The notes under the pieces are model-generated. The model searched no databases. It was given only the letters and a program-made list of their open reading frames with translations, and was not told the DNA's origin. Positions 1 to 1,975 of a stretch of 64,000 bases of DNA are shown here, one piece after another. This stretch comes from Pelagicoccus sp. SDUM812003. Lineage in GTDB: Bacteria; Verrucomicrobiota; Verrucomicrobiia; Opitutales; Opitutaceae. The stretch covers positions 52,501 to 116,500 of the forward strand of contig NZ_JARXHY010000014.1 in assembly GCF_031127815.1 (NCBI RefSeq), written 5' to 3'. Position 1 is the first letter of the stretch. Every line of letters starts with the position of its first letter. The position numbers and the translations under genes were made by a program.

Positions 1-188
1 TTCACATGCGGTATTAATTCACCTTTCGGTGAGCTATCCCCCACATAAGGGTAGGTTCTTTACGTGTTACGCACCCGTTCGCCACTCTCATGTTTAATTA
101 GCAAGCTAACTAAACAATCCCGTTCGACTTGCATGTCTGAACCACGCCGCCAGCGTTCATTCTGAGCCAGGATCAAACTCTCCGAAAA
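1..188 (-). rRNA. rrs: 16S ribosomal RNA, 5' portion (cut by left edge)
   Basis: Read on the minus strand, the conserved 16S start AGAGTTTGATCCTGGCTCAG begins at 181. It is followed by the conserved segment ending in GCTGGCGGCGTGG and the stretch CATGCAAGTCGAACGGG. Counting back from E. coli position 8 puts the mature 5' end near 188. Only helices up to roughly E. coli position 180 are inside the window. The gene runs off the left edge, so any 23S/5S genes lie outside. Transcription would come from the promoter-like repeats between about 416 and 935. Confidence 0.97.
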
Positions 189-290
189 GAGAGTTCATGA
201 ATCCATGGATTCTTGAACTACGCTGACAAATTATTAATTGTCAGTATTTTAAGTTATTGATTGGGGTCACAATCAATCACGCTAAATAAA

Positions 291-318
291 TTTCAAAGAA
301 CACCCTGAGTTATCAGGG
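291..318 (-). promoter_or_regulatory. rRNA leader boxB-like hairpin and boxA antitermination signal
   Basis: On the minus strand a perfect 6-bp hairpin (CCCTGA-loop-TCAGGG, 303-318) is followed directly by TGTTCTTTGAAA (302 down to 291). This matches boxA sequences of bacterial rRNA leaders, including the Bacillus form. The order boxB then boxA is that of rRNA operons, where NusB/NusE load on boxA. It lies about 100 nt upstream of the mature 16S end. The sequence match is direct; the function is inferred from rRNA operons elsewhere. Confidence 0.8.
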
Positions 319-433
319 AAAGACTCCATTCATTTCAAAACCAAATCCCTTCGTCAAGTTTTATTTTAAACTTTTTCGTTGGGGCGAAGTTTTTGTTGAA
401 CTTCAACTTGAATCTAAAAGAACGGGAGGCCGA

Positions 434-461
434 ACACTGTTCGAATTGTTTTCCGAATCAA
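434..461 (-). promoter_or_regulatory. candidate rRNA promoter, copy 1 (nearest 16S)
   Basis: The -35-like box is TTGATT (461-456) and the -10-like box CAGTGT (439-434), with a 16-nt spacer and a TCGGCCTCC discriminator. The -10 keeps only the most conserved A and final T of TATAAT, so the call rests on the repetition of the architecture. Confidence 0.5.
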
Positions 462-546
462 GCTCTTTTTTGAACTTTTTCTTCACTTCCAAAACGAGAC
501 GTTTCGAAGCGAAACAATTTAGAAAACTTTAAGAACAGGAGGCCGG

Positions 547-574
547 AAAGTGTCGAATCGTGATTTTGATTCAA
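547..574 (-). promoter_or_regulatory. candidate rRNA promoter, copy 2
   Basis: The -35-like box is TTGAAT (574-569) and the -10-like box CACTTT (552-547), with a 16-nt spacer and a CCGGCCTCC discriminator. A strongly A/T-rich block at 579-596 sits where an UP element would lie. Confidence 0.55.
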
Positions 575-659
575 GCAGAAAATTTAATAATTTTCGCTTT
601 CCGAAAGCCGGTTCAAAAGACCAAGTAGTGAGTTGTGCTAAAAGGAACAGAGGTGGCGG

Positions 660-687
660 AAAGTGCCATCTTCGTTTCTCATTTCAA
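660..687 (-). promoter_or_regulatory. candidate rRNA promoter, copy 3
   Basis: The -35-like box is TTGAAA (687-682) and the -10-like box CACTTT (665-660), with a 16-nt spacer and a CCGCCACCT discriminator. An A/T-rich block follows upstream at about 692-708. Confidence 0.55.
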
Positions 688-781
688 GCAGAAAGTTTAA
701 TTATTTTTCGGGGCTCAAACCCATCGAAAATGAATCAAAACACTCGCTTTCGCGCACCGCTAAAAAGAACAGAGGAGGCGG

Positions 782-809
782 ACAGTGCCACTTCCAAAGA
801 CTAATTCAA
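782..809 (-). promoter_or_regulatory. candidate rRNA promoter, copy 4
   Basis: The -35-like box is TTGAAT (809-804) and the -10-like box CACTGT (787-782), with a 16-nt spacer and a CCGCCTCCT discriminator. A T/A-rich block lies upstream at about 813-840. Confidence 0.55.
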
Positions 810-900
810 GCAGTTTTTTCGACTTTTTTCGGTCGAAAAACGAAGGGCGCTTGATTGGAAACAAGCTGCTTGAGAGCACTGGAAAAGAACGAAGGCCCGG

Positions 901-928
901 ACAGTGCCCAAACCTAATCATCATTCAA
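901..928 (-). promoter_or_regulatory. candidate rRNA promoter, copy 5 (most distal)
   Basis: The -35-like box is TTGAAT (928-923) and the -10-like box CACTGT (906-901), with a 16-nt spacer and a CCGGGCCTT discriminator. It is the outermost copy; no sixth copy was seen further upstream. Confidence 0.5.
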
Positions 929-935
929 GCGTTTT

Positions 936-1513
936 CTGAAAAAACTTTTCCACAATGCAAATTCCACAGGGGGACATCGCCATCGAACCGCTCCAAACAG
1001 GTTGGTTAAGCCCTTTCCGGAATCAACTCGCTGAAACACTTTGGCAGATTTCTGCCAATCTCCGCCAGCACTGCCAGAGAGAAGCGAAATCCACGGCGGC
1101 ACGGAGCCGCCCTCCCCCCCCCCCCTTCCCAGTCTCAGCATAGTCAGGCCGAAAACGAAGGAGACCAAACGCGCCGCCCCAGCGCAGAGCTCGCCCGATC
1201 GTGACGCCATGGCGAGCTCGCTTCTCGAAACTCGAAGCGACAGCGTTCGAGGTGTAAACATCGCAGCGACCTCCAACGCGACAAGTAGCGGGAAATGGGC
1301 AGTCGGAGGCTCGATGTAAGAGCGTAGATAATATATATATAGTTGCATTGAACAGATGAAACCCAAGTCGTGCATTCACGCTCGCCATGCGAATCATTTT
1401 CACCAAACTCGCCCGCTATTACTTAGGCAGCTACTGGCACAAGACGGTTGCATCCTAGGAAAAACCCTGTAACAGACCCAAGTTTTACAGAACAACCACG
1501 AACCCATAGAGCT
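936..1513. other. intergenic stretch without a recognisable gene
   Basis: No convincing gene was found between the rRNA promoter repeats and accB. Open frames exist on both strands, but their products are low-complexity and resemble nothing known. The stretch holds a run of 12 C residues (1114-1125) and a (TA)n-rich tract around 1329-1342. It must carry the accB promoter, but no clear hexamer pair was identified. Confidence 0.6.
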
Positions 1514-1975
1514 TTGGACATCAAAGAGATTAAGCAGATCGTCGACCTAATGAAGAAGTCCGACCTAACGGAATTTTCGGTCGAGGAAGAGAACTTCAAA
1601 TTGCAAATTAAGCGAGCGACCGAGAGCGCCAACGCCCCGCAAATCGTCAGCTACGCCCCTGCTCCTGCCGCAGCGGCTCCTGCAGCTCCCGCTCCTGAAA
1701 CCGCTCCTGCGCCCGCTCCCTCCGCAGCCGTCGAGGACAATTCGAAGTACATCACTTCTCCCATGGTCGGCACCTTCTACACCGCGCCATCCCCGGACAG
1801 CTCCGCATTCGTGAAGGTGGGAGACTCCGTGGAGGCCGAAAGCGTGGTCTGCATCATTGAAGCAATGAAGATCATGAACGAAATCCAGTCCGAGCTCAAA
1901 GGCACGATCGCCGAGATACTCGTCGAGAACGGCCAGCCGGTCGAATTCGGCCAGCGCCTCTTTCGCTTGTCCTAG
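1514..1975 (+). CDS. accB: biotin carboxyl carrier protein of acetyl-CoA carboxylase (AccB)
   Basis: This is the 153-residue carrier subunit of acetyl-CoA carboxylase, which carries biotin between the carboxylase and transferase sites at the first step of fatty acid synthesis. The N-terminus [17 protein letters not shown] is the family's usual start. An Ala/Pro-rich flexible linker (about residues 45-75) follows, then the C-terminal biotinyl domain with EAMKIMNEI, the lysine near residue 119 being the biotinylation site. Homology places the start at a TTG codon at 1514; an upstream in-frame TTG at 1448 would add 22 non-conserved residues. accC follows after 87 bp, the usual pairing. The ligase BirA is encoded separately near 45 kb. 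Confidence 0.95.

Follow-up and report, generated by a model that had tools for sequence, protein, structure and literature searches.

A five-fold tandem array of P1-type promoter-like units upstream of the 16S rRNA gene in Pelagicoccus sp. SDUM812003

The window analysed here is a 64,000-nucleotide stretch (contig NZ_JARXHY010000014.1, positions 52,501 to 116,500) from Pelagicoccus sp. SDUM812003, a member of the genus Pelagicoccus within the Verrucomicrobiota. It begins with the 5' end of a 16S ribosomal RNA (rRNA) gene and, between this gene and a divergently oriented open reading frame (ORF) resembling accB, contains an array of five tandem promoter-like units, all of which are read on the minus strand toward 16S (Table 1). 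A pattern composed of CTTGA, 15 to 20 arbitrary nucleotides and CASTKTYCG matched the 64-kb window five times, on the minus strand and within the array in each case (431-462, 544-575, 657-688, 779-810 and 898-929), with 0.03 matches expected by shuffling and none of 100 shuffles reaching five. Start-to-start distances of the units are 113, 113, 122 and 119 nt, and the spacer between the -35 and -10 boxes is 16 nt in all five. Scoring with a 52-nt weight matrix, built from 25 units of seven loci and with the scored unit left out each time, assigned 27.7-47.0 bits to the window units, against a maximum of 0.7 bits over the 123,898 other window positions. Five tandem promoter-like units with a 16-nt spacer and a regular period of 113-122 bp had been proposed in an earlier inspection of the letters alone (hereafter the sequence-only reading), and these features were borne out; the extent given there was 416-935, but the A/T tract of unit 5 reaches approximately 949. 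The array was not detected by Tandem Repeats Finder run on the window, because the linkers between the units have diverged.

Table 1. Features of the window around the array; box positions are written in the direction of reading.
Feature	Coordinates	Strand	Details
16S rRNA gene, 5' end	1..188	-	RF00177, 119.8 bits; runs off the window
Leader boxA	284..301	-	GTTCTTTGAAATTTATTT; conserved across the family
Short leader hairpin	303..318	-	CCCTGATAACTCAGGG; directly before boxA
P2	320..375	-	A/T tract, then -35 TTGACG 357-352; -10 box indistinct; expected start near 320-330
P1 unit 1 (16S-proximal)	416..482	-	-35 TTGATT 461-456; -10 CAGTGT 439-434; discriminator TCGGCCTCCC; GTTCTTTT 423-416
P1 unit 2	529..595	-	-35 TTGAAT 574-569; -10 CACTTT 552-547; discriminator CCGGCCTCCT; GTTCTTAA 536-529
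P1 unit 3	640..708	-	-35 TTGAAA 687-682; -10 CACTTT 665-660; discriminator CCGCCACCTCT; GTTCCTTTT 648-640
P1 unit 4	762..830	-	-35 TTGAAT 809-804; -10 CACTGT 787-782; discriminator CCGCCTCCTCT; boxA-like GTTCTTTTT 770-762
P1 unit 5 (most distal)	883..949	-	A/T tract ~949-930; -35 TTGAAT 928-923; 16-nt spacer; -10 CACTGT 906-901; discriminator CCGGGCCTTC; boxA-like GTTCTTTT 890-883
accB-like ORF	1448..1975	+	biotin carboxyl carrier protein (name from sequence); divergent neighbour

The arrangement TTGNNN-16-CAnnnT was found in 34 units from ten genomes, reading into 16S. The spacer was fixed at 16 nt in this pattern; separate searches that allowed 14-19 and 15-17 nt also returned 16 nt, the exception being one dubious 14-nt candidate in locus L101. 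Invariant among the 25 matrix units are the C preceding TTG, TTG itself, the CA and the T of the second box and one C of the discriminator, and the spacer columns carry about 0.1-0.4 bits each, the last two excepted. Nearly every column 5-20 nt before the -35 box has A or T as its most frequent base (mostly 50-90%), which gives a tract resembling an upstream (UP) element, and a GC-rich discriminator (CCGGCCTCC and similar) follows every -10 box. Both had been pointed out in the sequence-only reading, as had the restriction of conservation to promoter parts, in agreement with linkers between corresponding units that stand at or near shuffled identity. For the linker from unit 2 to unit 1 this was the case in most pairs of species, with a length of 44-48 nt in 8/9; such constant length at diverged sequence suggests selection on spacing, although the rarity of insertions and deletions could account for part of this constancy. 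A helical-phase test of the unit spacings was suggestive only, since the units share ancestry. RNA folding of the units was no better than that of shuffled sequences (z -0.2 to -0.95), and they would therefore act as DNA. Terminators or RNA structures in each unit were discarded as candidates, as no unit beats shuffles and terminator-like matches are not common to all of them; a sigma54 reading, prompted by TGGCAC beside the -10 box, was also dismissed, the second element lying, by eye, 10 nt off and not 12.

The array is present at the same place in seven Pelagicoccus genomes, with 3-5 units seen. Five P1 units were counted in G000, G001 and G003 and three in G002, G004 and G005, while G006 has at least four, the count excluding the stretch nearer to 16S. 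The closest named relative, Pelagicoccus sp. SDUM812002 (G003, locus L008), belongs to the same genus of GTDB as the genome of the window. Furthermore, two units occur in three genomes of a sister lineage (G019, G083 and the metagenome-assembled genome UBA7389), and twelve other genomes of the family have a single P1, again with 16 nt between its boxes, at about 185-220 nt before boxA (G009, G077, G022, G085, G023, G032, G030, G031, G087, G058, G059 and G065); in several others P1 was not recognised by the leader comparison. Counting of the repeat units in related genomes, an idea of the sequence-only reading, thus gave one to five copies. Because units recur at the same place in relatives in this range of copy numbers, the unit is, as judged from sequence, the P1 promoter of the rRNA operon (rrn) of this lineage, multiplied in Pelagicoccus. 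The divergent neighbour was accB wherever the flank was read, in Pelagicoccus and sister-lineage loci (the window, L008, L009, L089-L091, L105, L106, L178 and L179). In the tree of units, unit 1, unit 3 and unit 5 mostly cluster each with units of the same position from other species, and the array therefore probably arose before the species diverged, units having been gained or lost afterwards. It should be added that the interval separating accB from the array contains, on the plus strand, a run of 12 C (1114-1125), representing a possible assembly uncertainty or a variable tract.

Two elements between the array and 16S, P2 and the leader boxA (301-284), had gone unlisted in the sequence-only reading. 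The five promoters claimed there hold as five P1 units, but the predicted promoters are six and of two kinds, P2 (357-352) having been missed. That reading had also named a single strong promoter elsewhere, such as close to 300, as an observation that would speak against the array; P2, with its start expected near 320-330, fits this description, but it is situated beside the array and does not replace it. A TTGAC box of the P2 type was found in 28/30 leaders, 51-79 nt before boxA (about 50 nt in the window), and the leader boxA of the GTTCTTTGAAA type is conserved between promoters and 16S in 29 genomes. By its sequence, the leader element GTTCTTTGAAATTTATTT has the form of boxA. The latter is an rRNA antitermination signal bound by NusB and S10 (PMC10250234).

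P2 is retained more widely than any other element, some Pelagicoccus have only three units, and G005 seemingly lost one, with a gap of 196 nt remaining. One might thus suppose that only P2, and perhaps unit 1, is active and that units 2-5 are useless decaying duplicates. We consider this quite improbable: units 2-5 keep their core boxes intact against linkers at shuffled identity, useless duplicates would be expected to lose the 16-nt spacing, and in G001 and G003 (L105 and L106) it is the -35 box of P2 together with its A/T tract that is absent, with five P1 units retained.

The same type of promoter was revealed at other stable-RNA genes. In a unit-model search of eight Pelagicoccus genomes the rRNA arrays ranked first, followed by sites upstream of the transfer RNA (tRNA) gene tRNA-Ser(GCU), directly before which boxes similar to TTGATC-16-CACTGT were present in G001, G002, G003, G004 and G007; this promoter ends about 15 nt before the tRNA (L175, L155, L176, L180 and L181, about position 1500). 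TTGA[CT] occurs upstream of 18 of 32 tRNA genes, versus 2.6 expected by shuffling; almost all of these 32 genes are from the genome of the window and the remainder from one relative. At 16-nt spacing, 17/24 tRNA cases have T as the sixth base of the -10 box, and position 1 may be any base. On account of this upstream pattern, stable-RNA promoters here seem in general to combine a strong -35 box, a short spacer and a weak -10 box. Apart from tRNA genes, a P1-like promoter lies near the transfer-messenger RNA (tmRNA) gene of G007 (L163, about 1500-1540), where TTGATT-16-CACGTT precedes GTTCTTTGA; this promoter, after which comes GTTCTTTGAC, is situated about 140 nt upstream of the gene.

The recurrence of the -35/16 nt/-10 layout right before tRNA genes also bears on the idea that the units are not promoters and serve as repeated operators for a regulator controlling P2. 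Their regular spacing and the palindromic look of some -10 regions (CGAACAGTGTTCG in unit 1) would agree with operators. However, dyad symmetry over all 34 units is not convincingly above that of shuffled spacers (best p 0.02 among eight centres), and the palindrome of unit 1 is not present in G001, G002 and G005, so that we hold the operator explanation to be extremely improbable. The CA(G/C)TGTTCGGCCTCC sequence of unit 1 is retained in six genomes of the genus.

The GTTCTT-type element described in the sequence-only reading is indeed present, following the -10 box in 27/34 units, but has no fixed distance to this box and is better read as a boxA-like RNA sequence. We incline toward the latter, because the distance varies (10-11 nt in the window and 9-13 nt across relatives), whereas the -35/-10 spacing is constant, and because GTTCTT is missing from most tRNA promoters that have these boxes; moreover, the element agrees with the core of the leader boxA of the family. 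After each P1 it may represent a putative antitermination signal in RNA. GTTCTT could instead be a promoter element or an initially transcribed DNA element, as it sits right at the expected start and most relatives with a single P1 show only a loose pyrimidine stretch at this position; we assign this alternative a smaller, although by no means negligible, likelihood.

We regard it as highly probable that the array consists of five copies of the lineage's rrn P1 promoter, all of them sigma70-type stable-RNA promoters. Motif, conservation, orthology, differences in copy number and the same motif before tRNA genes are the direct observations behind this interpretation. Each copy would combine an UP-like A/T tract, a -35 box of the strong TTGA type, a weak -10 box (CAnnnT) at a constant spacing of 16 nt and a C/G-rich discriminator. 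Polymerase with a sigma70-type factor would start about 7-10 nt past each -10 box, i.e. near 427, 540, 653, 775 and 894, and the transcripts would pass the downstream copies, the leader, P2 (TTGACG) and boxA before entering 16S. GTTCTT just past each start would probably serve, once transcribed, as an antitermination signal resembling boxA. If the copies are additive in strength, a larger number of them would provide a higher rate of polymerase loading at a seemingly single or low-copy locus, potentially under growth-rate control. Several points weigh against this interpretation: the -10 box agrees with TATAAT only at positions 2 and 6 (A2 and T6), a generic sigma70 scan recovers none of the five array units, a boxA-like sequence so near to the start is unusual, and distal copies might be weak or occluded. 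The loose -10 box (CAnnnT) may be the rule of the lineage, as position 1 is just as little constrained in the tRNA promoters of this genome. For a generic consensus of mRNA promoters, TTGAC matches in 464 kb of DNA from the genus were too few to be of use.

As to regulation, the control of rRNA promoters in E. coli involves GC-rich discriminators and UP elements (PMC4696680), and a gene of the DksA/TraR family is present; the array may be controlled by guanosine tetraphosphate (ppGpp), as the sequence-only reading had considered. Dependence of the promoters on CarD was rejected, since a stand-alone CarD was not found and the only match lies within a 1140-aa frame of the size of Mfd. Of the 29 genomes having the leader pattern, 28 contain it a single time, and the array occurs once in G006, an assembly made up mostly of one 5.5-Mb contig. 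A single leader in nearly every draft genome fits a low rrn number, although contigs ending in or near 16S keep this count provisional. Coraliomargarita, a relative, has two rRNA operons (PMC3035286). The only genome with two leaders was G032 (L128 and L145), where one has P1 (CATGTT) and none was recognised in the other; its two operons may differ in promoters. A tentative scenario, which we find rather unlikely as a whole, is that promoter dosage replaced rRNA gene dosage, a trade the sequence-only reading had suggested: a single rrn operon would be served by five P1 copies, each with its own boxA loading an antitermination complex, and the spacing (111-116 or 119-125 nt, ranges that differ by about one helical turn) would have been selected so that neighbouring polymerases load unblocked.

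Our literature search found no report on rRNA promoters of Verrucomicrobiota and no mapped rRNA start sites for the phylum, and the present data outline a stable-RNA promoter of this group. Related bacteria carry this rRNA promoter in one, two, three or five copies, a natural series in which the long-standing question of how promoter number is traded for operon number and growth rate can be tested directly. The 16-nt spacer of the array is also that of E. coli rrn P1; in distinction from the P1-P2 pair of E. coli, P1 of Pelagicoccus is five-fold, its -10 box is CAnnnT and, besides P2, there is a boxA-like element after each P1. More than two promoters per operon are shared with Streptomyces, in which rrn operons have up to four. 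Five copies, considered by the sequence-only reading to exceed the usual number, are unusual but precedented: the multiple-promoter region (HMPR) of mycobacterial rrnA has five promoters in Mycobacterium chelonae and two in M. tuberculosis (PMC10218544). As in that region, tandem promoters of species-variable number precede one rRNA operon, and the final one is close to a conserved element of the leader (PMC10218544). Across the family of Pelagicoccus, an rRNA region with two or more promoters is represented, as sequence features, by 1-5 P1 units and P2, and no homology to the mycobacterial region is claimed; the phylum is another, the sequences are unrelated, and the Pelagicoccus copies share one motif, a 16-nt spacer and a near-constant period, with a boxA-like element after each copy. 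The Pelagicoccus array is thus a well-supported variant of a known arrangement.
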